Assembly (NCBI GenBank): GCA_008933805.1
Contig: WBUH01000003.1
Span: forward strand, 124,001 to 188,000
Source of the DNA: Bacteroidota bacterium
GTDB lineage: Bacteria > Bacteroidota > Bacteroidia > UBA8524
Direction of reading: 5' to 3'
Length of the DNA stretch: 64,000 nt
The notes under the pieces are model-generated. The model had not been told where the DNA came from, ran no database searches, and worked only from the letters and a program-made list of their open reading frames with translations. Position numbers and translations under genes: made by a program. This document shows, in pieces, positions 4,705 through 20,263 of this stretch. The stretch's first letter is position 1, and the number at the start of each line of letters is the position of its first letter.

Positions 4705-5751
4705 TTATTTGCGGGATTCTTTAAGTGTTTTTTTGGTATCGATTAGTTTTTTAAGGGCGTTGTACCAGAAATCGGCCCCGAATGAAATTGCAAACCCTGT
4801 ACAGAGCCAGCCTAAAAGCGCAAACAACCCAAATTTCAGATAACCCCAAAACGATTCGTTGGCCTTATTTTTAACTTCAAAAAACGATTCTTTGTAATCG
4901 TAAAAGCTTTCCCAGCCCAAGGGTAAATTTAACTCTTCAATTATTTTACCGGCTTCTTTTGCGGCCACTAAATGCTTTTTAACCAATGAATCCTGACTAA
5001 TATTTGATGCTGTATCCAGTGCTTGTATTTTGTTGAGACTGTCTGTCGTCTCTACATAATTCATAGCTGTTTGCACAATTATCTCACGTTGTGCATCTTC
5101 CTTCCACAAATACTCCACTAAAATTATACTGTTCACATTAAACACCACCGATACCACTGTGCCTAATACTATCATACGGGTTCTAAGGTCTCTCTTAAAC
5201 CATCCGCCTGTGCGCTCCATGTAGGTATTAAACCACCCCTCAATATTTGCAATTGCCTTTTCAATGGCCAAATTTTTATCCAGCCCTTCGCTAATATCAA
5301 ATATCCATGTTTCGGCAATCCGCTTAAAAGGCCCATCATTCAGCGTTTCAATACCGTTTTTAAGCTTCTCAAAAGGTGAAAGGGTATCGTATATGGCATC
5401 CTCCAATACATCGTATTTCTTCGTTTCATGGTTGAACCGCAACGATTTATTTCGCGAACGGTATTGAAGGATATCGGTAATGGCCACAGCAAAGTGATTT
5501 GAGCTAAGACCTGAGGGAAACACTTTGCGGGTTTCTTTTACACTATCTACCAACGGGTGTCGGTATAGTTCATCTGCAAAGTTGTTGTTGTGCGGGTCGT
5601 TCAGTACATCGGTAAGTACCTTTTTTAAGAATCTTCCCCTGCGATTGTACAAAGATTGGTAAAGCTCATAAATACCTGAAACTGCTATGCTGAACAGCAT
5701 GTAGATAAAGGCCAATGAAAGCAATACATCAATAGCTTTTGCTTGTAGCAT
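4705..5751 (-). CDS. Conserved bacterial membrane protein of unknown function
   Basis: A 348-residue protein with one N-terminal helix (about residues 5-27), a large soluble part, a central helix following GGWFKRDLRTRM and a C-terminal helix with LLGWLCTGFAISFGADFWY. Many bacteria carry proteins of this build (N-terminal helix, a segment like L-x-x-HPLV, a central G-W-F-K-R, and a final G-A-x-F-W); their function is not known to me. An in-frame GTG at 5790 would add 13 residues; ATG 5751 starts right before the first helix and is preferred. It precedes the amidohydrolase gene by 25 bases, suggesting a joint operon. Confidence 0.75.
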   Translation of the reverse strand: MLQAKAIDVLLSLAFIYMLFSIAVSGIYELYQSLYNRRGRFLKKVLTDVLNDPHNNNFADELYRHPLVDSVKETRKVFPSGLSSNHFAVAITDILQYRSRNKSLRFNHETKKYDVLEDAIYDTLSPFEKLKNGIETLNDGPFKRIAETWIFDISEGLDKNLAIEKAIANIEGWFNTYMERTGGWFKRDLRTRMIVLGTVVSVVFNVNSIILVEYLWKEDAQREIIVQTAMNYVETTDSLNKIQALDTASNISQDSLVKKHLVAAKEAGKIIEELNLPLGWESFYDYKESFFEVKNKANESFWGYLKFGLFALLGWLCTGFAISFGADFWYNALKKLIDTKKTLKESRK

Positions 5752-5862
5752 TGTATAGTTATTGGTTAATAGGTTTTTTGTAAAACTCACCCAAAATTAT
5801 TGTTTATCTGTTAAATTATAAACAAGTGTTTTTTGGTAATTTGTTCTACATGATAATTGGGC

Positions 5863-7062
5863 TTATTTGCCCATGGCCTTATAAATTTCGGCAACGCTGT
5901 TTTCCCACGTATGCGATAGCGCATAGGTTATCCGTTTTTGTTTCAGCAAGGTATCCGTTTCGTTTAGTGCCTGCTCAATCATGGTAAGATAATCGGCTTC
6001 GCTTTCTGCCAAATACACATAACCTTCAAAAATCTCCATTGCCTCTGTTTTGGTAGCCACCGTGGGTTTGCCCATTGCAAGGTATTCATCAATTTTGCGG
6101 GGATAGTTACCAATAGTTACTTCGTTAAGTATTTGCGGGTTCAAAGCCACATCAAAACTCGAAAGGTAGGCAGGCAGTTCGTCGGGCTTTTTAGGGCCTG
6201 TGAAAAATACGTTGGCTAATTGGTGTAATGCACTGTTTTTAAATGCATCATCCTCTGGCCCTACTAGCACCAGATTCCATTGCGGACGCTGGCGGGCAAT
6301 GTTTTCAAGCAATTTTACATCCAGCCTAAGGCCGTACAATGCCCCTATATATCCAACGCGGGGACGGTTGATGTGTTGAATGTCTTGAGGCTCTGCGTGA
6401 GTTATCTCTGCGCTGAATTGTTCAGTCTCACACCCTTGTCCAACATAATAGCTTTTGGGGTTGTGCTTTTGTGCCACACGTGCCAAATACACGGAGTTTG
6501 CAGTTACCAAATCGGCTTTTTGCATTAAGGCGGGCTCAATGCGCAAACCGTGGCGTTTCCAATAATCTACGGCCAGCAAATTATCGCGCGTGTAGTAAAT
6601 ATATTGCGTGGGTTGTAGCAGTTCTTTGAGGTAAAAACTGCGAAACATATCGCTATCATTAAACAGTGCAAAGTCTTTAAAATCAAGCTCTGCTATGGCT
6701 TTCTTAATTTCACCGGCAAACCTGCGGTTATTGCGTTTGTTAAAAAAATCGAACAAAAAACCATCTGGCAAACGGTTAATAGATTCTAACCTGCAATTGG
6801 GAAAAAACTGCCAGATATTATCCCCCACCTTTTGCAGTTGCGGTTCATGCCCCGCCATCACAGCAAGTCGTTTTTTTACCTGAGGGTCGTCCTTTCTGTT
6901 CAGTAAAGTGTTTCTGTCAAGCGGTGAGTTCACATAAATAACCCTATTATTTTTACTCACCTCCAAGGCAATGTTTTTGCAATTGCTTCCAATCGGCAAA
7001 TCCCACGGTTGTAAGCCTACAAACACAAAATCCCTGTCCTTTACATTATACGCACTCCCCAT
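5863..7062 (-). CDS. Glycosyltransferase, TuaH/GT4-like
   Basis: A 399-residue GT-B glycosyltransferase. The N-terminal half begins FVFVGLQPWDLPIGSNCKNI and resembles TuaH-type teichuronic acid transferases; the C-terminal half has the sugar-nucleotide-binding features YIGALYGLRLDVKLL, LVGPEDDAF and PRKIDEYLAMGKPTVAT, where E-x-x-A-x-G-x-P is the GT4 donor-site signature. It is transcribed away from the exopolysaccharide operon with only 88 bases between the starts, so it very likely adds a sugar to the same polymer or its lipid-linked precursor. Donor and acceptor are unknown. Confidence 0.88.
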   Translation of the reverse strand: MGSAYNVKDRDFVFVGLQPWDLPIGSNCKNIALEVSKNNRVIYVNSPLDRNTLLNRKDDPQVKKRLAVMAGHEPQLQKVGDNIWQFFPNCRLESINRLPDGFLFDFFNKRNNRRFAGEIKKAIAELDFKDFALFNDSDMFRSFYLKELLQPTQYIYYTRDNLLAVDYWKRHGLRIEPALMQKADLVTANSVYLARVAQKHNPKSYYVGQGCETEQFSAEITHAEPQDIQHINRPRVGYIGALYGLRLDVKLLENIARQRPQWNLVLVGPEDDAFKNSALHQLANVFFTGPKKPDELPAYLSSFDVALNPQILNEVTIGNYPRKIDEYLAMGKPTVATKTEAMEIFEGYVYLAESEADYLTMIEQALNETDTLLKQKRITYALSHTWENSVAEIYKAMGK

Positions 7063-7150: not shown

Positions 7151-8008
7151 ATGTCGCACGGCAACATTTCTAATCGCACACAAAACATTTATAAATCACT
7201 GCTAGCCTTAGCATTAGCAATAACAGTGATAATTAACCTAAAAGCACAGTCATCCCTTAACGAAACGGGGTTCTTGCTGAACGATCCCATCGATACGATA
7301 AAAAGAGACACGCTTATCTTCAATTTGGATGTTGATATTAGCCAGCAATTGTTGCCGTTAGATACTATATTGCAGATTGCTTACTCAAACTCGCCCAATA
7401 TTAAGTATGAATCGTCGATGATAAAATCCAAAGTGCACGATTACAGGTATAACCGTATGCTGTTCTTTCAGGGTTTCAGCGGCTTCTACAACTATGCGGT
7501 GGGTAACCAAACCATGATAATCACGGGCTCTACTCCGGTAGATAACTCGCAGTTATCAAACGGTTACAGGGCGGGGATAAACATATCGTTGCCTTTTTCA
7601 ACCTTGTTTGGGCAAAACCAAAAAAATAAAACGTTGCGCGCCCTTATTGAAGCCGCCACACACCGTAGAGACCAAATTGAGTTAGAACTTCGCAGGGAGA
7701 TTTTGAGGGTGTATGTGAACATGATTGAAGCCCAACGTAAACTTACTGTTCGTAACGAGGATGCCCAATCATCGTTTTTATCAGCACAGGTAGCAGAGAT
7801 TGAGTTGGCTGAAGGAAAAATAAACACCACGGAATATGCCCGTGTAAAGAATATTTATGCCATTGCGCAAAACAACGTTGAGCAGGAAAGAGCCAACTTT
7901 TTACGCGCATTTTTTGATTTTGAAACCTTGGTGGGAGTGGAAATGAAATACCTTAAAAAGAAACCTGCAACTACTACCCCTACCCCAACTACGCCCAACA
8001 AAAATTAG
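7151..8008 (+). CDS. Short TolC-family outer membrane protein of exopolysaccharide locus
   Basis: A 285-residue exported protein: signal-like hydrophobic stretch at about residues 17-31, then DTILQIAYSNSPNIKYESS (the usual first helix of an outer-membrane efflux repeat), a strand-rich part ending GYRAGINISLPF, and long helices through EILRVYVNMIEAQRKLTVR to FFDFETLVGVEM. Ordinary TolC proteins have 400-490 residues and two such repeats; this one has a single repeat and ends with a Pro/Thr tail. It stands first in the operon, 3 bases before the Wzz-like gene, in the place where a Wza-type exporter would be expected. Confidence 0.82.
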   Translation: MSHGNISNRTQNIYKSLLALALAITVIINLKAQSSLNETGFLLNDPIDTIKRDTLIFNLDVDISQQLLPLDTILQIAYSNSPNIKYESSMIKSKVHDYRYNRMLFFQGFSGFYNYAVGNQTMIITGSTPVDNSQLSNGYRAGINISLPFSTLFGQNQKNKTLRALIEAATHRRDQIELELRREILRVYVNMIEAQRKLTVRNEDAQSSFLSAQVAEIELAEGKINTTEYARVKNIYAIAQNNVEQERANFLRAFFDFETLVGVEMKYLKKKPATTTPTPTTPNKN

Positions 8009-8011
8009 AAG

Positions 8012-10201
8012 ATGACGCTGCTCGGATTTGTAAGATTAGTGATAAAGAGGCTCCCGTGGCTCATCATATTCCCGGGATTATTAGCAGGTTTGGTGTTTTA
8101 CCTAACAAAAAACCTTAGCAAAGAATACATTTCATCCACCATACTTTATACGGGTATCGCTTCAGGTGTTAACATCACCGATGGTGGCGAAAACCGTATG
8201 GATTACTTTGCGGTAAATACGGCCTTTGATAACCTTATCACCACCATAAAATCAAGAGAAACTCTTGAAGAGGTGGGCATGAAAATGTTGGCGCTGCACT
8301 TGTTGCAAAACAAGCCTGATGTAACCATTATTAACGAAAAGAGTTTTAAAAAGCTGCAAGAGTTAGTATCGGATTCGCTTCGGAAGGTACTTGTAGTGCC
8401 TGGTAATATTGATTCTACGTTTGCACGCATTGAACGTATTCGCTCATCTGCCAGCCGTAACCCAATAGCTGATATCATCAACTCAGGTACTTCGCATTAT
8501 TCGGTACACAGTATTCTTGGTCGTTTGACGGTAATGCGCAAAATGAACAGCGATATGCTTGAAATGGCCTTTAGGGCTGATGACCAAGCTGTGTGTATGT
8601 ATACATTACGTTTTTTAACCATAGTTGCCAAGCACCGCTATCGCTCTGTAAAAGGTTCTGAAAACCAAAACGTAATACGCTATTTTGAAGAACAGTTGCG
8701 CCGCGCTTTGGTTGATTTGCGTGCTGCCGAAGACCGTTTGAAAAACTTCGGGGTGCAAAACCGTATTATCAACTACCACGAACAATCAAAATATATTGCT
8801 GAAAGTAAGGAGCACATGACTACTGATTACTACAAAGAAGTCATGCATTTTGGTGCATCAAAAGCGGCATTGGAGCGTTTAGAGAAAAAGCTTGACGACC
8901 GTGAGATTGTGGTAGGTAATTACAAAGACTTATTGACTAAACGGCAAGAATTGGCAATTGCCAACCGTAAACTGGCCAATGCTAAAGTATATGGCGAAGC
9001 TCCTGAACTTATTGAGGAGCTTGAGTACGAGGTAGAGACTCTACAAGAAGAGATGCGCCAGCTTGCCAAACAGTATTACAAACTGAACAATACAGTAGAA
9101 AGCGTACCTCAACAAGAGTTATTGGGCGAATGGCTGAACAAAGTAATCGAGTACGAAGAATCTTCGGCAAGGATTACGGTGTTTGAAAAACGCTTGAAAG
9201 AATACGACCAGATTTATGACGAGTTTGCACCTTTAGGCTCAGAAGTTACCCGTCTTGAGCGTAATGTGGATGTAACTGAAAAAGAATACCTGTCAATCCT
9301 GCACGGTTTAAACCTTGCCAACCTGCGCCAGCAAAACCTTGAAATGGCTAACTCGCTTACCATTATGGACGAGCCGTTTTATCCGCTTACTCCCCAAGCG
9401 TCTAAACGTATGATAATGATTATCGCATCGTTTATTGCGGGTGCGGTATTGTTATTGGCGTTGTTTGTGGCTCAGGAAATTTTAGACCAAGCTGTACGAA
9501 CTCCTGAAAAAGCGGTTAAATCATCAGGGCTTACTCTTGCAGGGGCATTGCCTGCCTTGCGTAAGGTAAAGTCGAAAGTAATAGTAGAGCAGGTAGAGCA
9601 ATCGCTTACCGAGCAACTGATTACCAGTATCACCATTGCTTTAAAAGAAGCCGAAAAGAAAAGTACCTATTACCAAATAAATACATTTAGTGCCCGCCAA
9701 GGCGATGGAAAAACATGGCTGAATCAGCGTATTGCCAACCGCTTTGCCCAAATAGGAAATAAGGTGTTGTATTTGTACCCTGAAACTTCTCCGTTAGGCT
9801 CGATAGAACTTGATGAACGCGTTGTGGCCATACCTTACGAGGTTAACGGCGGCTTTTTTGCAACCGATGGCATACAGGCATTACTTGCAGGAAAAGGCTA
9901 TAACAGTTTTGAGTTTGGGTATGTGTTTTTAGAAATTCCCTTCCTCTCTCACAACACCGTACCGTATGATTTAGTGGCACAAGCCCACGTTTCATTATTG
10001 GTGATGAATGCCGAACGCTCATGGACAACTGCCCACGAACGCGTAGTAGGCTTATATGAAAAGGCTGCAAAAAATAAAGTGATGCTGGTGCTAAACCGCG
10101 TTACTCCTGAAATGCTTGAAAGTGTTTATGGCGAGATACCCAAACACCGCTCACCACTTAGACGCATTATTAAACGGATTTTAAGCAGAGGGGCTATATA
10201 A
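8012..10201 (+). CDS. Wzz-like polysaccharide co-polymerase with degenerate tyrosine-kinase domain
   Basis: A 729-residue inner-membrane protein. A first helix lies at about residues 13-32, a long coiled-coil periplasmic part follows, then a proline-rich stretch (PFYPLTPQASKR) and the second helix at about 466-490, as in Wzz chain-length regulators. The cytosolic part (about 545-729) resembles a BY-kinase: SARQGDGKT at about 560 fits Walker A, but the usual D-x-D Walker A' site is replaced by LYPETS and there is no tyrosine cluster at the C-terminus. It probably sets polymer length and links the polymerase to the outer-membrane protein encoded 3 bases upstream. Kinase activity is doubtful. 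Confidence 0.87.
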   Translation: MTLLGFVRLVIKRLPWLIIFPGLLAGLVFYLTKNLSKEYISSTILYTGIASGVNITDGGENRMDYFAVNTAFDNLITTIKSRETLEEVGMKMLALHLLQNKPDVTIINEKSFKKLQELVSDSLRKVLVVPGNIDSTFARIERIRSSASRNPIADIINSGTSHYSVHSILGRLTVMRKMNSDMLEMAFRADDQAVCMYTLRFLTIVAKHRYRSVKGSENQNVIRYFEEQLRRALVDLRAAEDRLKNFGVQNRIINYHEQSKYIAESKEHMTTDYYKEVMHFGASKAALERLEKKLDDREIVVGNYKDLLTKRQELAIANRKLANAKVYGEAPELIEELEYEVETLQEEMRQLAKQYYKLNNTVESVPQQELLGEWLNKVIEYEESSARITVFEKRLKEYDQIYDEFAPLGSEVTRLERNVDVTEKEYLSILHGLNLANLRQQNLEMANSLTIMDEPFYPLTPQASKRMIMIIASFIAGAVLLLALFVAQEILDQAVRTPEKAVKSSGLTLAGALPALRKVKSKVIVEQVEQSLTEQLITSITIALKEAEKKSTYYQINTFSARQGDGKTWLNQRIANRFAQIGNKVLYLYPETSPLGSIELDERVVAIPYEVNGGFFATDGIQALLAGKGYNSFEFGYVFLEIPFLSHNTVPYDLVAQAHVSLLVMNAERSWTTAHERVVGLYEKAAKNKVMLVLNRVTPEMLESVYGEIPKHRSPLRRIIKRILSRGAI

Positions 10202-10217
10202 TCCCAAACAAATACCC

Positions 10218-11546
10218 ATGTGGCAACGGCTAAAACATATTATGCAAAGCAATGCATTTGCATCGCTGGCAGGCAATGGAATGGGTGCTGTATTGGGAAT
10301 TGGTACACTTGCTATACAAGCCCGCACGCTTAGCAAGAATGACTTGGGAAGCTGGCTGGTTTTTATCACCACCTTTACTCTTTTTGATGTAATCCGTTCG
10401 GGACTAATTCTAAATCCCGTTATCCGTAACATGGCCGGTGCCAAAACACAAGGCGAGCAGCAAACCATAGCCGGTGCGGCTTGGCAATTGTGTGTATTGT
10501 TTACCGCAATTGCCGTTGCAGTGTTCACGTTACCGGGGGTTGCCTTTTACGGTTGGTTTGCAAGTCTTGATATGGGCTTTTTTGTACAGTGGTTCTGGCT
10601 ATTGGCCGTTATCACCTTGCCCCACAACCTTGCTACCTGGTTTTTAAATGCTTCGCAGCAATTTAAAAAAGTACAATGGGTACGTATTCTTAACCAAGCT
10701 TTGTTTTTAGGTTTCAACATTGCCAATTTCAGCCTCAATTTGGGGATTGATTATATTTTTTGGGGCTTTGTCATCAGCCAGTTAGCTACATCGTTACTTA
10801 CACTTATTCTTGGCTGGAGCCGCATTACTGATTTTAGTAAAGGAGATAAACCTACCCGCCAAAAACTATTCAGTTTTGGCAAGTATAGCATGCTTACCCT
10901 ACTGGTTTCAAACCTGTTACGCAGCAGCGATACTTACATTTTAGGGCTGCTGCTGGGGCCTGTGGCGGTGAGTATTTATAATATTCCCCAGCGTTTGTTG
11001 CAAATTTTTGAAATGCCGATAAGTGCCATCAGTATTACGCGACTGCCCATACTGGCAGGATTGCACAGCCATGGCAAGGAAGAGGAACTGACCAATGAGT
11101 TTCACAAAAGTGCAGGCGTATTGTGGTTGGGCATAATACCCGTAGCATTGTTATGCTTTATTTTTGCTGAACCTTTAGTGATTTTGCTGGGTGGAGAAGG
11201 CTTTCGCGAGTCGTCCTCGGTACTGCGTTTTTTTGCTGTTTATGCTGCTTTCCTTCCGCTTGAAAGGTATAGCGGTATTGGTTTAGATGTGGTGAATCAA
11301 CCCCGTTTAAATCTGATAAAAGTGATACTTATGCTTGCTGTAAACATAGCAGGCGATTTTGCCGCCATCTACCTGTTTCCTAATGCCCCTGTGGCTGCGG
11401 TAGCGGGCATTTCGGTAATTACATTTGGCAGCGGAGTATTGCTGGGTTACAGCTTTTTGGGTAAACACATGAAGTTTTCATTTTCAGGCATTATAAGCAG
11501 CGGGTGGCAACAAATCGCCTCGCTGGCAGGCAAATTAAAGAGATAA
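10218..11546 (+). CDS. Wzx-like polysaccharide flippase
   Basis: A 442-residue integral membrane protein with about twelve hydrophobic segments and the N-terminal SLAGNGMGAVLGIGTLAIQ typical of oligosaccharide flippases of the MVF/PST superfamily. It should carry the lipid-linked repeat unit across the inner membrane. The segment YSMLTLLVSNLLRSSDTYIL in the middle is the usual start of the second half. The gene lies 16 bases after the co-polymerase gene and 5 bases before the likely start of the polymerase gene, in one operon. Confidence 0.88.
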   Translation: MWQRLKHIMQSNAFASLAGNGMGAVLGIGTLAIQARTLSKNDLGSWLVFITTFTLFDVIRSGLILNPVIRNMAGAKTQGEQQTIAGAAWQLCVLFTAIAVAVFTLPGVAFYGWFASLDMGFFVQWFWLLAVITLPHNLATWFLNASQQFKKVQWVRILNQALFLGFNIANFSLNLGIDYIFWGFVISQLATSLLTLILGWSRITDFSKGDKPTRQKLFSFGKYSMLTLLVSNLLRSSDTYILGLLLGPVAVSIYNIPQRLLQIFEMPISAISITRLPILAGLHSHGKEEELTNEFHKSAGVLWLGIIPVALLCFIFAEPLVILLGGEGFRESSSVLRFFAVYAAFLPLERYSGIGLDVVNQPRLNLIKVILMLAVNIAGDFAAIYLFPNAPVAAVAGISVITFGSGVLLGYSFLGKHMKFSFSGIISSGWQQIASLAGKLKR

Positions 11547-11551
11547 ACACC

Positions 11552-13009
11552 GTGGGAGAAAAAAACAGCTTATTCCGTGTATTGTGGCTGGCCCTTATTT
11601 TGGGTTTAGCGGCAGCCGGTTTGGCTTTTCTCATCACATCGGGCGGATTGGAAACCGCGGGCATATTTATTGTGCTGCCCATTGCTATTGGATTTGCAGC
11701 TATATGTATTGCAAAGCCCAAAACCGGACTTTTAATTTACCTGCATACCAGTTTCTTCAACAACGGACTTTTCAGGTTCTTCCCGCCTTCTATCCCCTAC
11801 GGGTTGATGATTGATGCCATACTGGGGGTATGCGTGCTGGGTACTTTCTTTAGTGTTGACAAAAAAGACTTAAAACGAGCCAACAATCCACTGGTTTGGA
11901 TAGTTGTAGTTTGGTTTTTATATACCCTTTTTCAGCTTGTAAACCCCGAAGCACGAAGCAAAGAAGCATGGTTTTATGCTGTGCGGGGGGTATCAATGTA
12001 CTGGGTACAAACCCTGCCCCTTTTATTTATATGGATGCACAAGCGCGAAGACATGGAGAAGTTCATCCGCATTTGGCTGGGCTGGTCGTTTGTGGCTGCT
12101 TTGTGGGGTTTTAAACAACAATACATCGGCCTTGCAGGGGGCGAAGTAAAATGGCTTGAAGAAGGCGCAAAAGACACCCACATACTGATGGGTAAACTCC
12201 GTAGTTTCTCCTTTTACTCCGATGCGGGACAGTTTGGTGCAGCAATGGCGCATTGTGCATTGTACTGCATCATATTAGGCATGGGTGTAAAAGATACCCG
12301 ACGGCGACTTATATACGGCGGGTTGGGCTTTATTTACTTTTGGGGATTTGCAGTGGCAGGAAGTCGGGGACCGTTATTTGTTATCGCCGCAGGATTTTTG
12401 ATGTACCTGTTTTTGGTGCGGAATTTCAGGGTACTTGCAGTTGGTTTGGTGGCAGGGGCTTGCGCCTTTATCGTGCTTAAATACACCACTGTAGGGCAAG
12501 GTAACTACCAAATACAACGGATGCGTACCGCGCTCGACCCTCAGGATGCTTCGTTTCAGGTGCGTCTTGAAAACCAAGCAAAACTTAGGGTATATTTAGC
12601 TTCACGACCTATAGGAGGGGGTATTGGTGCCGGTGGTAACTGGGGTAAACGATTCACCCCCGGAACATTCCTTGCTGAAACTGCATTGGATAGCTGGTAT
12701 GTGAAAATTTGGGTTGAAACAGGCGTAATAGGCCTTTGGATGCACATTTTGCAAATAGTAATTATACTTTACTACGGTTTCCGAAAAGTCTTTTTCTTAA
12801 ACGATAACGAGCTGCGGCTCAAAACCATTGCCCTGCTCTGCGGGTTCTTTGGGGTTGCGGTAGCCAGCTACGGAAACCAAGTATTCGGGCAATTACCTAC
12901 TTCAACCGTTTTATATTTCAGCATGGTATTCTTTTATTTGTGTGACGAATGGGATATACCCGACGATGAAGTAAAAAAGCCCGAACCTGAACGCAATTTA
13001 ATGTGGTAA
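11552..13009 (+). CDS. O-antigen ligase / polymerase-like protein (Wzy_C family)
   Basis: A polytopic membrane protein of 485 residues with a long periplasmic loop before the last helices. The loop contains YLASRPIGGGIGAGGN and TALDSWYVKIWVETGVIGL, which is the conserved part of the O-antigen ligase/polymerase family. In this locus it most likely polymerises the exported repeat units. Two GTG starts are possible: 11504, inside the flippase gene, or 11552, 5 bases after its stop; 11552 puts the first helix close to the N-terminus and is preferred. The end overlaps the next gene by 7 bases. Confidence 0.87.
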   Translation: MGEKNSLFRVLWLALILGLAAAGLAFLITSGGLETAGIFIVLPIAIGFAAICIAKPKTGLLIYLHTSFFNNGLFRFFPPSIPYGLMIDAILGVCVLGTFFSVDKKDLKRANNPLVWIVVVWFLYTLFQLVNPEARSKEAWFYAVRGVSMYWVQTLPLLFIWMHKREDMEKFIRIWLGWSFVAALWGFKQQYIGLAGGEVKWLEEGAKDTHILMGKLRSFSFYSDAGQFGAAMAHCALYCIILGMGVKDTRRRLIYGGLGFIYFWGFAVAGSRGPLFVIAAGFLMYLFLVRNFRVLAVGLVAGACAFIVLKYTTVGQGNYQIQRMRTALDPQDASFQVRLENQAKLRVYLASRPIGGGIGAGGNWGKRFTPGTFLAETALDSWYVKIWVETGVIGLWMHILQIVIILYYGFRKVFFLNDNELRLKTIALLCGFFGVAVASYGNQVFGQLPTSTVLYFSMVFFYLCDEWDIPDDEVKKPEPERNLMW

Positions 13010-13914
13010 CCTCTACACCTTTAGTAAGCATCATTACCGTAAACTATAACGGGGCCGAACACACCCTTGCTTTGTTGGATAGTTTACAAAAAATATCCTA
13101 TCCTGCTATTGAGGTATGGGTGGTGGATAATGGCAGCCACGAAAACCCTGACGTTATCACCCAAAAACACCCTTGGGTGCATTTGGTAAAAAGTACCCAA
13201 AACTTAGGTTTTGCGGGGGGTAATAACTTAGCATTAAAACAAGCCACGGGTAAATATTGCCTGCTGATAAACAACGATACCGAAGTACCTGCCGGATTTT
13301 TAGAACCGTTGGTAGAGAAACTTGAAACCGACGCAAAGTGCGGTTGTGTAAGCCCAAAACTGGTATACAGTTATGCCCCCGACACTATGCAATATGCAGG
13401 CAGTTTTGGGTTTAATGTATATACAGGACGTGCATTTGCAAGGGGCAGCAAAGAAAAAGACGAAGGCCAATACAACGGTACCGAGAAAACCGAGATTGCA
13501 CACGGTGCAGCAATGATGTTTCCTACACGTTTGCTTAAAGAAATCGGTTTGATGGCTGAGTTGTACTTTTTGTACTACGAGGAGATTGATTACTGCGAAC
13601 GTATAAAGCGCGCAGGGTATGAGATTTGGTATGTGGGCAGCTCTACCGTGTATCACAAAGAGAGCATGAGTACGGGCAAAAAAAGCCCCCTCAAAACTTA
13701 TTACCTGACCCGAAACCGCCTGCTTTTTGTGCGCAGAAACTTTAGCGGTTTGGCTAAATTATCCAGCGTATTGTTTTTTTATTTCGCCGCTATTCCTAAA
13801 AATTTAGTAACATTGGTAGTAAGAAAGGAGTGGAAATTAATTGTTCCTTTGCTGAGAGCTGCGTTTTGGAACTTAACGCACCACAACATACATACAAACG
13901 AGATTCTTAAATGA
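13003..13914 (+). CDS. Glycosyltransferase family 2 (rhamnosyltransferase-like)
   Basis: A 303-residue GT-A enzyme without strong membrane helices. Visible motifs are VSIITVNYNG at the N-terminus, VDNGSHENPD, the donor-site NNDTEVP in place of D-x-D, and FLYYEEIDYCERIKRAGYE, which holds the E-E-D-x-x-R-x-x-x-x-G acceptor-site pattern of the RfbF/WcaE-like group. It should add one sugar to the lipid-linked repeat. The GTG start at 13003 overlaps the preceding gene's end by 7 bases, and its own TGA overlaps the next ATG (ATGA), so translation is coupled on both sides. Confidence 0.9.
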   Translation: MVTSTPLVSIITVNYNGAEHTLALLDSLQKISYPAIEVWVVDNGSHENPDVITQKHPWVHLVKSTQNLGFAGGNNLALKQATGKYCLLINNDTEVPAGFLEPLVEKLETDAKCGCVSPKLVYSYAPDTMQYAGSFGFNVYTGRAFARGSKEKDEGQYNGTEKTEIAHGAAMMFPTRLLKEIGLMAELYFLYYEEIDYCERIKRAGYEIWYVGSSTVYHKESMSTGKKSPLKTYYLTRNRLLFVRRNFSGLAKLSSVLFFYFAAIPKNLVTLVVRKEWKLIVPLLRAAFWNLTHHNIHTNEILK

Positions 13915-15086
13915 TTATATTACAAATACTTGCATTGATCTTATTGCTATATGTCGGCTTCAACGTAGTTTATATGCTGATATATGCCCTTGCAGGTTTG
14001 TTTTACCGAAGGCCCCATTTCCCCGAGCGCGAACCGCAAGTTACCTTTTGCGTGATGGTGCCTGCATACAAAGGCGACAATGTGATTATAAACACTGTAA
14101 CCGAAAACCTAAAACAAAGCTACCCCAATCACTTATACGACATTTATGTAATTGCCGACAGTTTTAAGCCTGAAACACTGGAAGAGCTTAAAAAATACAA
14201 TGTGCGGGTAATTGAAGTACAATTTGAAAACAGTACCAAAGCCAAAGCCATCAACAAGGCGTTTGAAATAATTGAAGAGAAATACGATTACGTGGTATTG
14301 CTTGACGTTGACAACATTATGGAGCCTGCATTTTTGCAAAAACTGAACGACCGTTTGGTAAACAACGTGCAAATATTGCAAGCCCACCGTACTGCGCTTA
14401 ATACTAATACCTCGTACGCATTGTTGGATGCCATCAGCGAGGAAATAAGCAACCATATTTTCCGCAAAGGGCACGCTGCATTAGGGTTTTCTAGTGCATT
14501 AATCGGCTCAGGCAAGGCAGCCGGGTTCAGGTTTTTTAAAGACATTATGAGCACTATTGATGCTGTAGGTGGCTTTGATAAAGAACTGGAACTGAAAATA
14601 TTAAAACAACGCATCAAAATGTATTACTTAGAAGATGCGTATGTATATGACGAGAAAGTAGAAAAGGCCGATGTGTTCCAAAACCAACGTCGCCGTTGGC
14701 TTTCGGCACAGGTGTACTACCTGCGTAAAAACTTCTTTTCAGGCATTACCCAACTGTTTTACGGCAATTTTGATTACGCCGATAAAATTATGCAGTACAT
14801 GCTGTTTCCAAAACTGCTGTTGTTGGGTTCATTGTTCATCATCACCCCTGTAGTTTACTTTTCAGGTCTTCCCTTGTATAGCAGTGCGTGGATAGTGTTG
14901 TTGGTGTTAAACATCATTACCCTTGCCATATCTGTACCCTCTCGCTTTTATACTGCACAAACTGCACAAGCAGTGCTTACCCTGCCTAAGGCGTTTTTCT
15001 TGTTCTTTAGCAACTTGTTTAAACTAAAAGGGGCCAATAAAAAATTCATTCACACCCCGCACGGGCAGAAAGAGGCAAAACCATGA
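13911..15086 (+). CDS. Membrane-bound glycosyltransferase family 2
   Basis: A 391-residue enzyme with an N-terminal helix (about 3-28), a GT-A domain and two C-terminal helices. Catalytic features: VPAYKGDNVI, DSFKPETLE, the D-x-D-like LLDVDNIMEP, and NQRRRWLSAQ, the Q-x-x-R-W motif of processive or membrane-attached GT2 enzymes. Its ATG overlaps the previous TGA and its own TGA overlaps the next ATG. The topology resembles cellulose/hyaluronan synthase relatives, but it lacks the extra helices of a full synthase, so it probably adds a sugar on the cytosolic face. Substrates are unknown. Confidence 0.89.
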   Translation: MIILQILALILLLYVGFNVVYMLIYALAGLFYRRPHFPEREPQVTFCVMVPAYKGDNVIINTVTENLKQSYPNHLYDIYVIADSFKPETLEELKKYNVRVIEVQFENSTKAKAINKAFEIIEEKYDYVVLLDVDNIMEPAFLQKLNDRLVNNVQILQAHRTALNTNTSYALLDAISEEISNHIFRKGHAALGFSSALIGSGKAAGFRFFKDIMSTIDAVGGFDKELELKILKQRIKMYYLEDAYVYDEKVEKADVFQNQRRRWLSAQVYYLRKNFFSGITQLFYGNFDYADKIMQYMLFPKLLLLGSLFIITPVVYFSGLPLYSSAWIVLLVLNIITLAISVPSRFYTAQTAQAVLTLPKAFFLFFSNLFKLKGANKKFIHTPHGQKEAKP

Positions 15087-16210
15087 GGATAGGGATTGAA
15101 GCACAACGCCTTTTTCGGAAGAAAAAACACGGTATGGATATCGTGGCGCTTGAACTGATAAAAGCGTTGCAAAAGATAGATACCGGCCATGAGTTTGTTG
15201 TGTTTGTAAGACCCGATACGGATGATAAAGTAATAACCCCCGGTGCTAATTTTGAAATAGTTAGGGTAGAAGGTTCCCCCTACCCCGTTTGGGAACAGTT
15301 TAAACTACCTCCTGCTGTAAAAAAATACGGTATTGATGTGCTGCATTGCACCGCCAATACTGCACCGCTAAACAGTTCAGCCCCAATAATTACTACCCTG
15401 CACGATATCATCTACCTTGAAAAACTGAATCTTACACAAGGCAGTATGTATCAGCGTATTGGAAACTTATACCGCCGCTGGAATGTGCCCCGTACAGTAA
15501 AAAAGAGTAAAATTATCACCACTGTATCTAACTTTGAACGTAAACGCATTTTAGACCATTTCAACCTGCCCGAAGAAAAGGTAGTAACGGTGTACAATGC
15601 GGTTGGGTCTCACTTTAAAAAGATTACCGACCCAACTGAATTGGAACGGGTGAAAAAGAAGTATAACCTGCCCGACGAATACTTGTTTTTTTTAGGAAAT
15701 ACCGACCCAAAAAAGAATGTTCGCGGGGTGCTGGCTGCGCTGGCAATACTGAAACAACAAGGCAAGTTACGTTTGCCCGTTGTGATGCCCGACCTTGACA
15801 GTTTGTATCTAACCCAAATCTTAAACGACATAAAAGCCCCCGATTTGGCAAACGATATTGTACTGTGCGGCTACATACCCAATGTAGAAATACCTGCTGT
15901 GTATAGCCGTGCCGTATTGTTCTTATACCCTTCGCTGCGCGAAAGTTTCGGGATACCTTTGCTGGAAGCAATGGCTTGCGGAGTGCCCGTGGTTACCTCA
16001 AACTCATCGCCAATGACTGAGGTGGCCGGCAATGCAGCACTTTACGCCGAAGCCGCCGAACCCGAATCGATAGCCGATAATATTGATATGTTGTTGAACA
16101 ACGAGCAATACAGGCAACAGTTAATTGAGTTTGGTATGGAGCGGATTAAGTTGTTTTCTTGGGAAAACACAGCACGCCAAATGTTAAGCCTCTACGAAAA
16201 AATAGTATAA
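15083..16210 (+). CDS. Glycosyltransferase family 4 (GT-B)
   Basis: A 375-residue GT4 enzyme. The N-terminal domain starts MRIGIEAQRLFRKKKHGMDI, the interdomain region has YLFFLGNTDPKKNVRGVL, and the C-terminal donor site has LYPSLRESFGIPLLEAMACG followed by VPVVTS, the E-S-F-G-I-P-L-L-E-A-M-A-x-G-x-P pattern of mannosyl- and other retaining transferases. It is translationally coupled to the preceding gene through ATGA. It should act on the same cytosolic lipid-linked oligosaccharide as its neighbours; sugar identity is not readable. Confidence 0.92.
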   Translation: MRIGIEAQRLFRKKKHGMDIVALELIKALQKIDTGHEFVVFVRPDTDDKVITPGANFEIVRVEGSPYPVWEQFKLPPAVKKYGIDVLHCTANTAPLNSSAPIITTLHDIIYLEKLNLTQGSMYQRIGNLYRRWNVPRTVKKSKIITTVSNFERKRILDHFNLPEEKVVTVYNAVGSHFKKITDPTELERVKKKYNLPDEYLFFLGNTDPKKNVRGVLAALAILKQQGKLRLPVVMPDLDSLYLTQILNDIKAPDLANDIVLCGYIPNVEIPAVYSRAVLFLYPSLRESFGIPLLEAMACGVPVVTSNSSPMTEVAGNAALYAEAAEPESIADNIDMLLNNEQYRQQLIEFGMERIKLFSWENTARQMLSLYEKIV

Positions 16211-16228: not shown

Positions 16229-16984
16229 ATGAAGGATTATTACAAATACACCGGATACACTTACGTTGAAGAGTTTAAACGCCTAGATTTTATTGTAGGA
16301 CAAGTGCAAAAAAACGTAACACCTCCTGCCAAAATATTAGATATCGGTTGCGGTAATGGTAACCTATCGATGGTACTTGGCAGTTTGGGATATGAAGTAA
16401 AAGGTATTGATGTGGATGATACCTCGATAGAAACTGCTAAAAAAAATAATACGTTTACTAACGTGAGTTTTGATGTAGCCGATGCAAACAAATTCACCAT
16501 GAATGATGAGTTTGATTTGATTGTGTGTACTGAAGTTTTGGAACACTTAACCGTGCCCGATGAGTTGGTACAATCGGCATACAGGATATTAAAACCGGGC
16601 GGTACTATGATTGTTACCGTACCCAACGGTTTTGGCCCCCGCGAAGCCTTGATGACCAAACCCATGCAATGGATGATGCGCAACGGCCACACCGATACAT
16701 TGCTTAAAATTAAACGCTTTTTTGGCTATAAACATGCTACCCACCAAAGCAGCAACCCCGATTTGACGCACATACAGTTTTTTACCCGCAAATCGTTGTA
16801 TAAGATGATGCAAAATGCAGGGTTTAAATTTATGGCCTTTGGTAAATCTAATTTCTTAGACCAAGTATTCCCCTTTTCGTTGGTGGCTAAACGTGTAAAA
16901 GCCCTACAGAAAATTGACAGTAAAGTGGCCGACATTTTGCCTCCTGCCTGTACCAACGGTTTTTATACCTCGTGGAAAAAGTAG
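16229..16984 (+). CDS. Class I SAM-dependent methyltransferase
   Basis: A 251-residue soluble protein. Motif I is ILDIGCGNGNLSMVL, the acidic ribose-binding position is GIDVDD, motif II is LIVCTEVLEHL and motif III is LKPGGTMIVTVPN, all standard for Methyltransf_11/23 enzymes. Located 18 bases after a glycosyltransferase gene and 9 before another, it probably methylates a sugar or caps the polymer; capping by methyl groups is known to end chains in some O-antigens, so a role in chain termination is possible but not shown here. Confidence 0.88.
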   Translation: MKDYYKYTGYTYVEEFKRLDFIVGQVQKNVTPPAKILDIGCGNGNLSMVLGSLGYEVKGIDVDDTSIETAKKNNTFTNVSFDVADANKFTMNDEFDLIVCTEVLEHLTVPDELVQSAYRILKPGGTMIVTVPNGFGPREALMTKPMQWMMRNGHTDTLLKIKRFFGYKHATHQSSNPDLTHIQFFTRKSLYKMMQNAGFKFMAFGKSNFLDQVFPFSLVAKRVKALQKIDSKVADILPPACTNGFYTSWKK

Positions 16985-16993
16985 CTGCCCCTT

Positions 16994-18166
16994 ATGACAT
17001 TGATTGAACTACTGTTTTGGGTGTTTTTTGCCATTGTGTTCTATACCTTTTTCGGGTATGGCATTCTGGTGTTTCTTTTAGTGAAGGTGAAAAATGTACT
17101 GTGGCCTAAAAAGAAACAGTTTGATGATACTTTTTTACCCGAAATTACCCTGATAGTACCCAGCTACAACGAGGCCGACTTTATACTGCAAAAGGTTGAA
17201 AACAGCAAAAGCCTTGATTACCCTAAGGATAAACTGAAGATAATTTTTGTAACCGACGGCAGCGACGACGGCACTTACGAAAAGATAAAAGACATTGACG
17301 GTATTATGGCCATGCACGTGCCCGAACGGGGTGGAAAATCAGGGGCGATGAACCGTGCAATGGGCTTTGTAACTACTGAATATGTGGTATTTTGTGATGC
17401 CAATACGATACTGAATAAAGAATCGCTGCGCGAGATTGTGAAGCACTACCAAAACCCAAGAAACGGCGCGGTAGCTTGTGAAAAACGCATCATACAAAAG
17501 GATAAGGAAAACGCCAGCAGTGCCGGCGAGGGTTTGTACTGGAAGTACGAATCGTTTTTGAAGAAATACGACAGCGATTTATATACCACAGCAGGTGCAG
17601 CAGGTGAGTTGATGAGCTGCCGCACTGCCCTTTACCAACATTTAGAACCCGACACATTACTGGATGATTTTATGCTTACCATGCGCATTGCTGAAAAGGG
17701 CTACCGTATTGTGTACGAACCCAAAGCATACGCTATGGAAACGGCTTCAATGTCGGTAAAAGAAGAGTTGAAACGTAAGGTGCGTATTTGTGCAGGCGGT
17801 TGGCAAAGCATTATGCGTCTGGGCAATTTGCTCAACCCGTTCTATAATTTTCCCTTGTGGTTTATTTATGTGTCGCGTAAAGTGTTAAGATGGTCGCTTA
17901 CCCCACTGTGCATGCTGCTATTATTACCGCTAAACATCCTTTTAGCTCTTGATGGTACTATATTTTATATCCTGCTGTTAATAGGCCAAATTGCGTTTTA
18001 CAGTGCTGCTCTATTGGGCTGGTACTTTGAGAACCGCAAAATAAAGTTCAAAGCGTTTTTTGTGCCCTATTACTTCTTCATCATGAACTACTCAGTGTTT
18101 GCGGGTTTTGTTCGCTTTATCCGTAAACGCCAGTCGGTTAGGTGGGAACGTGCAAAAAGGGCTTAA
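16994..18166 (+). CDS. Membrane-bound glycosyltransferase family 2, last gene of the exopolysaccharide operon
   Basis: A 390-residue GT2 enzyme with an N-terminal helix (about 5-30) and three C-terminal helices. The GT-A domain shows LIVPSYNEADFI, VTDGSDDGTYE, FCDANTIL, DDFMLTMRIAEKGYR and RKVRICAGGWQS, the last being a variant of the Q-x-x-R-W region found in IcaA/HAS-like enzymes. The domain order matches membrane synthases that extend a polymer, though it could equally act on a lipid-linked unit. It begins 9 bases after the methyltransferase gene and is followed by a convergent gene. Confidence 0.9.
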   Translation: MTLIELLFWVFFAIVFYTFFGYGILVFLLVKVKNVLWPKKKQFDDTFLPEITLIVPSYNEADFILQKVENSKSLDYPKDKLKIIFVTDGSDDGTYEKIKDIDGIMAMHVPERGGKSGAMNRAMGFVTTEYVVFCDANTILNKESLREIVKHYQNPRNGAVACEKRIIQKDKENASSAGEGLYWKYESFLKKYDSDLYTTAGAAGELMSCRTALYQHLEPDTLLDDFMLTMRIAEKGYRIVYEPKAYAMETASMSVKEELKRKVRICAGGWQSIMRLGNLLNPFYNFPLWFIYVSRKVLRWSLTPLCMLLLLPLNILLALDGTIFYILLLIGQIAFYSAALLGWYFENRKIKFKAFFVPYYFFIMNYSVFAGFVRFIRKRQSVRWERAKRA

Positions 18167-18826: not shown

Positions 18827-20263
18827 TTATAGGTTAGGTTTTAGATACACTTTAAAGATCCTTTTGCTTGAAACTGTTGAATTAGGATCAGAGGTACTTT
18901 GAGAGGCCTTCGACTCGATACCGCCATACATGTAGCCCAACATAATACCTTTGCTATCGGTTGATTTTGGCAACTTGGCCATATCAATTGTTTTTTGCCT
19001 TCCTTGACTCAAAACAATGCTTACATGGGGTACAAAAATAGCTTCAGAACCCAAGTAGCCGGGCAAAGTAGGGCTTTGCTGAGGATACTCAACGGCTGTG
19101 CTGCTTCCGGTACGTACAATGGTAGTAGCATAGTTACTAAACGGCATAGGGTCTTGTGTGTTGTTGCTGTTCACCAAATTACCCTTGTCATCATAATAAT
19201 ACTGGGTGATACCGCCCAATATAGTAGTATAAGTGGTTTTGCTTGCCGCATCATAAAATGCAATATTTGGGGCAGCATATTGGTTAAACTGTTGCAAGAA
19301 ATTGTTATCGGTAGTAATGGTTGTGGCACCGGTAGTAGCATCCGCCTGTGAAATGTAAATAGGCGTTTGATAATCAATATTTGCTTGCGGAGTAAACACA
19401 CCACCGTACACAGTAATGTTAGGATTACCGTTTACATCGTAGCTTTCAAGTACCACAAGGTCGCGACGGTGGAACGATGAATCATCCCAAGTACAAGTAT
19501 CGGCAGCATACCCTGTAATTTTTGGTGTAGTGCCGCTGTTATCAATTTGGAACCTGCGAACCTCATTAGTATAAATCCCTGTAGAATTTGGGTTATAGAT
19601 TGTGTTAAAGTTTTGGCCGAACACCAAATAATACCAGTTGCCGATTTTGTGCAATTCGCCACCGGTTACCCTTAGCCTATCGTCAGCCGCACTTGAAGTA
19701 ATGGCTGAAGCCAAAGCGGCTGAGTTTTGGTTTTGGATAGCAGTAATAGCTGCGGGCACATTTATAGCCGTTAAATAGGGGAAAGTTTGGTAGCACGATG
19801 CCGGAGGGCTGTCCACATCGCATCCTTTGCCCGAAACTCCATAACCGCCAATGCAATACAGCGTGTTACCTTCATGGTAATACTCCATATTGGTAGCACT
19901 CAACCTGTCAAGAAATGCGGCAGGAATTGATAGTGAATCGGTTTTAGACGAATCTAAGTCTACCACATAAAAGTAGGTGTTCCTTCTTTTTGGAGTAAAC
20001 ACAGATGAAGTACCTGAAAAGTTGTGGAAACCGTTGGTACGTCCACCTAAAATCAGTAGTTCGCCTCCGGCTTGTGCCCAAGCAAACGATTGCAAAGCAG
20101 GGGCAAAATCGCTGTTTACTTCTTCCAAAGTAACTGTGTAAGGTGCTTTAGTAGCCGTTGCTGCATCATCAACCTTTTGTTCAGCGGGTTTGTTTTTGCA
20201 ACTGCTAATTGATACTACACCCGCAACAATTGCAAGTAAGTAGTACAAATAATGTTTTTTCAT
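18827..20263 (-). CDS. Kelch-like beta-propeller lipoprotein
   Basis: A 478-residue lipoprotein: hydrophobic signal at residues 5-20 and a lipobox ISSC giving Cys22. The mature part has repeated blades with a GG doublet after a hydrophobic strand (ELLILGGRTNGFHNFSG, TLYCIGGYGVSG, NITVYGGVFTP, TTILGGITQYYYD, LGYMYGGIESK), as in Kelch propellers. It should be anchored in the outer or inner membrane facing the periplasm or surface. The ligand is unknown. It is transcribed away from the ArsR operon and ends at a strong terminator. Confidence 0.78.
   Translation of the reverse strand: MKKHYLYYLLAIVAGVVSISSCKNKPAEQKVDDAATATKAPYTVTLEEVNSDFAPALQSFAWAQAGGELLILGGRTNGFHNFSGTSSVFTPKRRNTYFYVVDLDSSKTDSLSIPAAFLDRLSATNMEYYHEGNTLYCIGGYGVSGKGCDVDSPPASCYQTFPYLTAINVPAAITAIQNQNSAALASAITSSAADDRLRVTGGELHKIGNWYYLVFGQNFNTIYNPNSTGIYTNEVRRFQIDNSGTTPKITGYAADTCTWDDSSFHRRDLVVLESYDVNGNPNITVYGGVFTPQANIDYQTPIYISQADATTGATTITTDNNFLQQFNQYAAPNIAFYDAASKTTYTTILGGITQYYYDDKGNLVNSNNTQDPMPFSNYATTIVRTGSSTAVEYPQQSPTLPGYLGSEAIFVPHVSIVLSQGRQKTIDMAKLPKSTDSKGIMLGYMYGGIESKASQSTSDPNSTVSSKRIFKVYLKPNL

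Follow-up and report, generated by a model that had tools for sequence, protein, structure and literature searches.

The DNA analysed here, referred to as the window, is a 64,000-nt stretch of a Bacteroidota bacterium (UBA8524; assembly GCA_008933805.1, contig WBUH01000003.1, positions 124,001-188,000 of the forward strand). It carries an operon that opens with genes for a single-repeat TolC-family protein (half-OEP) and a Wzz/Wzc-like polysaccharide co-polymerase, the half-OEP stop codon being separated from the ATG of the second gene by 3 bases. The genes of the operon and its divergent neighbour were as follows:

5863..7062, minus strand: divergent GT4-like glycosyltransferase (TuaH-like), a conserved half-OEP neighbour
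7151..8008, plus strand: half-OEP, 285 aa, with a signal peptide, one OEP repeat and a Pro/Thr-rich tail
8012..10201, plus strand: Wzz/Wzc-like polysaccharide co-polymerase, 729 aa, with TM segments near 10-32 and 464-490 and a degenerate C-terminal kinase-like domain
10218..11546, plus strand: Wzx-type flippase (Polysacc_synt), 442 aa, PF01943, E 1e-15
11504..13009, plus strand: Wzy-type polymerase (Wzy_C), 501 aa, PF04932, E 7.5e-9
13003..13914, plus strand: GT2 glycosyltransferase (Pfam)
13911..15086, plus strand: GT2 glycosyltransferase, membrane type (Pfam)
15083..16210, plus strand: GT4 glycosyltransferase (Pfam)
16229..16984, plus strand: SAM-dependent methyltransferase (Pfam)
16994..18166, plus strand: GT2 glycosyltransferase (PgaC/IcaA-like)

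The components of a Wzx/Wzy pathway (flippase, polymerase and glycosyltransferases) were all present in the operon. Pfam search detected no Poly_export (OPX) gene in it, and no porin-like gene was recognised there. An OPX profile was built from 20 OPX loci and recovered the known OPX of this genome; it gave no match in any of about 125 half-OEP neighbourhoods, in agreement with the sequence-only reading, which had reported that the operon lacks a Wza gene. The initiating phosphoglycosyltransferase was missing from the operon, and the sole Bac_transf gene of the genome was unlinked (C4:184521). At that locus (L071; G000 C4:183021-186734), a response regulator gene precedes the gene of a REC-like/sugar-phosphate transferase, and this pair adjoins the half-OEP in many relatives. 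The closest match to the Bac_transf protein among the collected neighbourhoods was 54% identical and was encoded immediately upstream of the half-OEP of L074, and thus the window operon has the usual arrangement except that the two leading genes have moved elsewhere. Homologs of the glycosyltransferase at 5863-7062 (about 46-61% identity) were found directly upstream of, and divergent from, the half-OEP in about 20 loci. Neither this neighbour, nor the initiating transferase elsewhere in the genome, nor the conserved family described below had been noticed in the sequence-only reading. Two minus-strand genes without Pfam matches flank the region, one for a 361-aa membrane protein (4705-5790) between a glycosyltransferase and an amidohydrolase, and one for a 478-aa predicted lipoprotein (18827-20263) just past the operon end.

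Pfam analysis of the 285-aa protein gave a single PF02321 match (residues 70-260, profile positions 1-185 of 187, E 4.6e-15); since the profile was covered nearly whole and only once, the protein comprises one whole repeat and no second. PF02563, the Poly_export domain, was absent, and the protein was therefore not assigned to the OPX/Wza family. The AlphaFold model (single chain, 67 sequences, mean pLDDT 85.6) consists of a helix (70-107), two strands (110-117 and 139-146) and two further helices (149-220 and 226-261). The modelled helices of 26, 72 and 36 residues reproduce the layout of one OprM repeat, in which H2, H3 and H4 have near-equal lengths of 23, 67 and 36 residues and the strands have about a dozen (PMC8277102); the strands of the model are short, with 8 residues each. 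As read from the sequence, the residue alternation of the second strand (YRAGINIS) fits a membrane barrel strand. No solved structure was matched when the half-OEP sequence alone was searched, but the fold search did find matches: the top Foldseek hits in the PDB were all TolC, CusC, OprM, OprN, VceC or CmeC-type chains, and the alignments spanned about half of each chain. The OEP repeat and the two-strand, coiled-coil repeat fold of the TolC/OMF family were thus both found, within a chain that holds one repeat and not two. Both the single repeat and the two strands per chain had been proposed from the sequence; these analyses confirmed the first and supported the second.

A class-wide search revealed two length peaks, at about 225-340 aa and about 430-580 aa, the latter corresponding to ordinary TolC, and about 50 of the 395 genomes sampled within the class had the short form. 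Such single-repeat proteins, 210-320 aa long, were conserved across many of its families, with one copy per operon in a fixed place, and single-repeat matches were also obtained outside the class but within the phylum. In the tree, half-OEPs formed one clade (support 96/89). All 67 aligned relatives matched PF02321 and nothing else. A search of GTDB species seeded with the Wzz-like protein yielded 309 relatives, of which 80 were kept; the half-OEP lay immediately upstream of the Wzz-like gene and on the same strand in 79 of these 80 loci, the 80th being cut by a contig end. Recurrence of the same gene pair in 79 of 80 loci, together with PF02321 alone in 67 of 67 relatives, excludes chance. 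Over two partly overlapping samples, the Wzz-like gene was directly downstream of 117 of 123 half-OEPs, usually at a spacing of a few bases or with an overlap; among the six exceptions, L104 and L109 have a Wzz-like gene at another place in the locus, and L038 runs up to the edge of its contig. It might be supposed from its short length, the one point in favour, that the half-OEP is a truncated or decaying TolC, but a clade that spans many families with a single copy per operon in a fixed place rules out a truncation or a pseudogene, and this explanation retains next to no probability. Across 34 non-redundant operons, divergence of the half-OEP tracked that of Wzz (Pearson 0.89) more closely than that of Wzy (0.78) or Wzx (0.63), which is weak evidence since the genes share a history.

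The second gene had been called Wzz-like from its sequence, and this assignment held. The Pfam matches of the 729-aa protein to GNVR (E 2.9e-5) and Wzz (E 0.012) were both under the Pfam cut-offs, and its family profile matched the PslE and Wzc structures with E values of 3.6e-11 and 2.1e-10, respectively. In structural comparison the model aligned with full-length Wzc, also with that of Wza-Wzc complexes, and it shows the features of a PCP-2a/Wzc protein, namely two TM segments and periplasmic helices within a full-length Wzc fold. The PslE structure entries were deposited with eight chains each. The Walker A P-loop (GDGKT) is retained, its GK being kept in most relatives, and the Asp residues of Walker A' (YLYPETS) and Walker B (VFLEIP) are lost; a C-terminal Tyr cluster is absent, the final 60 aa containing 2 Tyr. 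This loss of kinase residues suggests a missing or altered cycle of Wzc phosphorylation. Two additions to the Wzz-like protein were observed in other lineages. In the f62 lineage, which is mostly without OPX, a periplasmic insertion of about 190 aa bears two LysM domains (L080, L083 and L085; 914-921 aa), and in the Telluribacter type, a C-terminal extension adds a SPOR domain and one more hydrophobic segment, the third of the protein (L172, L180 and L188; 995-1011 aa). These two independent gains of peptidoglycan-binding domains would suit a stationary machine spanning the cell wall.

The Wzx/Wzy pathway is taken to have an OPX protein as its exit, and the whole genome was found to encode one, on another contig (C13). 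It lies beside its own 828-aa Wzc, which, unlike the 729-aa protein, retains the Walker A' and Walker B Asp residues and a Tyr-rich tail. This locus (L039; G000 C13:100001-120000) combines OPX, a BY-kinase Wzc and a NeuB/NeuC-type nonulosonic-acid cluster, and represents a separate surface-glycan locus. Whole-genome searches with PF02563 identified OPX in 44 of 47 genomes with a half-OEP, where no OPX on the half-OEP contig came closer than about 80 kb, and also in all 30 further host genomes. These high counts would be expected if the polymer were handed to an OPX encoded elsewhere (that of C13 in this genome), with the half-OEP in a secondary role such as exporting another product or stabilising; we consider this improbable, given that the C13 OPX adjoins its own kinase-intact Wzc and the nonulosonic-acid cluster, that no OPX was seen linked to any half-OEP locus, and that no OPX was detected in three genomes of family f62. 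All four f62 genomes carry the half-OEP, and in three of the four (92-96% complete) no OPX above the cut-off was detected with PF02563 in the whole genome. The lack of a linked OPX and the existence of such genomes indicate that the half-OEP operon does not travel with OPX, and the operon appears able to exist without it; in genomes that have an OPX elsewhere, use of that OPX in trans is possible. The genome-wide search for Wza thus did turn up one gene, but because this gene lies apart from the operon beside a Wzc of its own, and because operon-bearing genomes without OPX exist, it does not refute the earlier idea that the half-OEP takes over the exit step.

Taken together, the operon probably encodes a polysaccharide pathway of the Wzx/Wzy-dependent type, with a single-repeat TolC-family protein in place of OPX (Wza). 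Conservation in the half-OEP was highest in both strands, which should face the membrane, and in the turn at the tip, where the long helices meet and contact with the inner-membrane partner is expected; the outer-membrane exit is most likely a half-OEP homo-oligomer docked on the Wzz-like oligomer. Its lower end, with the conserved tip turn, would rest on the crown that the Wzz-like oligomer forms in the periplasm, so that a continuous path could lead from Wzy through both oligomers to the cell surface. Six copies with 12 strands, which would copy the TolC barrel, or eight copies with 16 strands, which would follow Wzc symmetry, are possible; Wzc-type partners are octamers, and the 16-strand octamer is therefore an equal alternative to the hexamer. 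The sequence-only reading had proposed a non-standard path leading directly from the Wzz-like protein; the tight pairing makes such a hand-over plausible, and the export function itself is inferred. That interpretation is partly supported, in that it was right in outline and the system is more general than it had recognised.

In four related MAGs, the half-OEP has only 177 aa and the beta-hairpin is cleanly missing:

L147:2491-3021: 177-aa half-OEP
L151:312-842: 177-aa half-OEP
L152:5434-5964: 177-aa half-OEP
L154:5435-5965: 177-aa half-OEP

Pairwise dN was 0.03-0.05 and dS 0.24-0.50 among the more divergent pairs, about as in the neighbouring wzz genes, and this low dN relative to dS indicates purifying selection on the strandless form. 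It is the sole half-OEP found in its four genomes, which carry OPX genes, and this lineage may use a different exit. The strandless form keeps alive the view that the coiled coil may function alone, in which case the half-OEP would serve as an adaptor or sleeve in the periplasm, comparable to the hairpins of AcrA, MacA and HlyD, and would extend the Wzz-like protein towards a separate outer-membrane exit, either an OPX acting in trans or a beta-barrel that escaped recognition. The strandless genes, selected as they are beside Wzz and Wzy genes in OPX-bearing genomes, speak for it, as do the 8-residue strands of the model and the adaptor hairpins among the best VIA-align matches of the half-OEP, although long-helix matches at Z 9-11 are frequent by chance in VIA-align. 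We nevertheless regard a sleeve as unlikely, since both strands are among the most conserved segments, PF02321 is matched by every aligned relative, the window operon includes no gene recognised as porin-like, and three f62 genomes have no OPX above the cut-off.

The half-OEP also bears on the origin of TolC. Profile scores of half-OEPs were higher against the C-terminal repeat (mean 28 bits) than against the N-terminal repeat (14 bits), with C higher in 101 of 118. The C-terminal motif of OMFs, which are two-repeat trimers, could be ancestral (PMC8277102), and the preference for this repeat fits both a relic that predates the duplication and a secondary halving. A tree of half-OEPs with the N- and C-repeats of TolCs from their own genomes was weak and gave no order of the half-OEP relative to the TolC duplication. 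The same affinity to the C-terminal repeat, with eleven full-length TolC genes in this genome, could also be explained if half-OEPs entered mixed channels with full-length TolC, replacing one of its repeats; however, none of the genes in the loci was recognised as a full-length TolC, and it is Wzz rather than TolC to which the family is tightly linked, which makes mixed channels very improbable.

Comparison with known systems places the proposed homo-oligomer apart from each of them. TolC, OprM and CusC (PF02321) share with the half-OEP the repeat fold, the signal peptide, and two strands and a long coiled coil per repeat; they have two repeats where the half-OEP has one, so it would not form the standard trimer, and they work with an adaptor and a pump, whereas the half-OEP is paired with a polysaccharide co-polymerase. 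Like Wza-Wzc of group 1 capsules, the window operon encodes a Wzc-fold co-polymerase, Wzx, Wzy and glycosyltransferases, but it has no OPX, its co-polymerase has lost the kinase catalytic residues and the Tyr tail, and the half-OEP occupies the OPX position. The composite 'third system' also joins a beta-barrel outer-membrane exit to the Wzx/Wzy pathway, through a short OPX and an 18-strand monomeric barrel (PMC9601211), whereas the half-OEP exit would have no OPX and would draw its strands from several chains; no OPX was detected in the half-OEP loci with the OPX profile, so this pair is not found there. Synthase-dependent export (AlgE, BcsC, PgaA) likewise has a beta-barrel exit without OPX, but relies on a synthase, a TPR scaffold and a 16-18-strand one-chain barrel (PMC9601211) in contrast to Wzx, Wzy, PCP and a TolC repeat. 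On balance we lean towards a fourth class of outer-membrane polysaccharide export, in which a single-repeat TolC homo-oligomer on a kinase-dead Wzc would let the Wzy polymer out without OPX, its subunit being a pre-duplication form of TolC or a secondarily halved one.

TolC is unmentioned in two 2022 surveys of OPX proteins (PMC9601211 and PMC9603273, the latter an OPX classification). Our literature search, which covered papers outside most subscription journals, turned up no account of a TolC with one repeat, nor of a TolC relative in the place of Wza; a match for 'TolC hexamer' concerned the AcrAB-TolC pump. This points to an undescribed arrangement, with priority unproven given that scope. 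Surveys of capsule systems look for OPX. If the proposal is true, a widespread type of Bacteroidota operon with a half-size TolC would be missed by these OPX-based surveys, the half-OEP would join the fields of efflux channels and polysaccharide export, and a natural single-repeat TolC would be available for testing the origin of the two-repeat trimer.

Among the collected loci, L186 (3993-5849) contains a half-OEP fused in frame behind an apparent membrane acyltransferase, with a junction that resembles a signal peptide, and this fusion is likely due to a lost stop codon or an assembly error. L183, a contig filed as a Rickettsiales MAG, bears a half-OEP operon of the Bacteroidota type and is probably a mislabelled bin.
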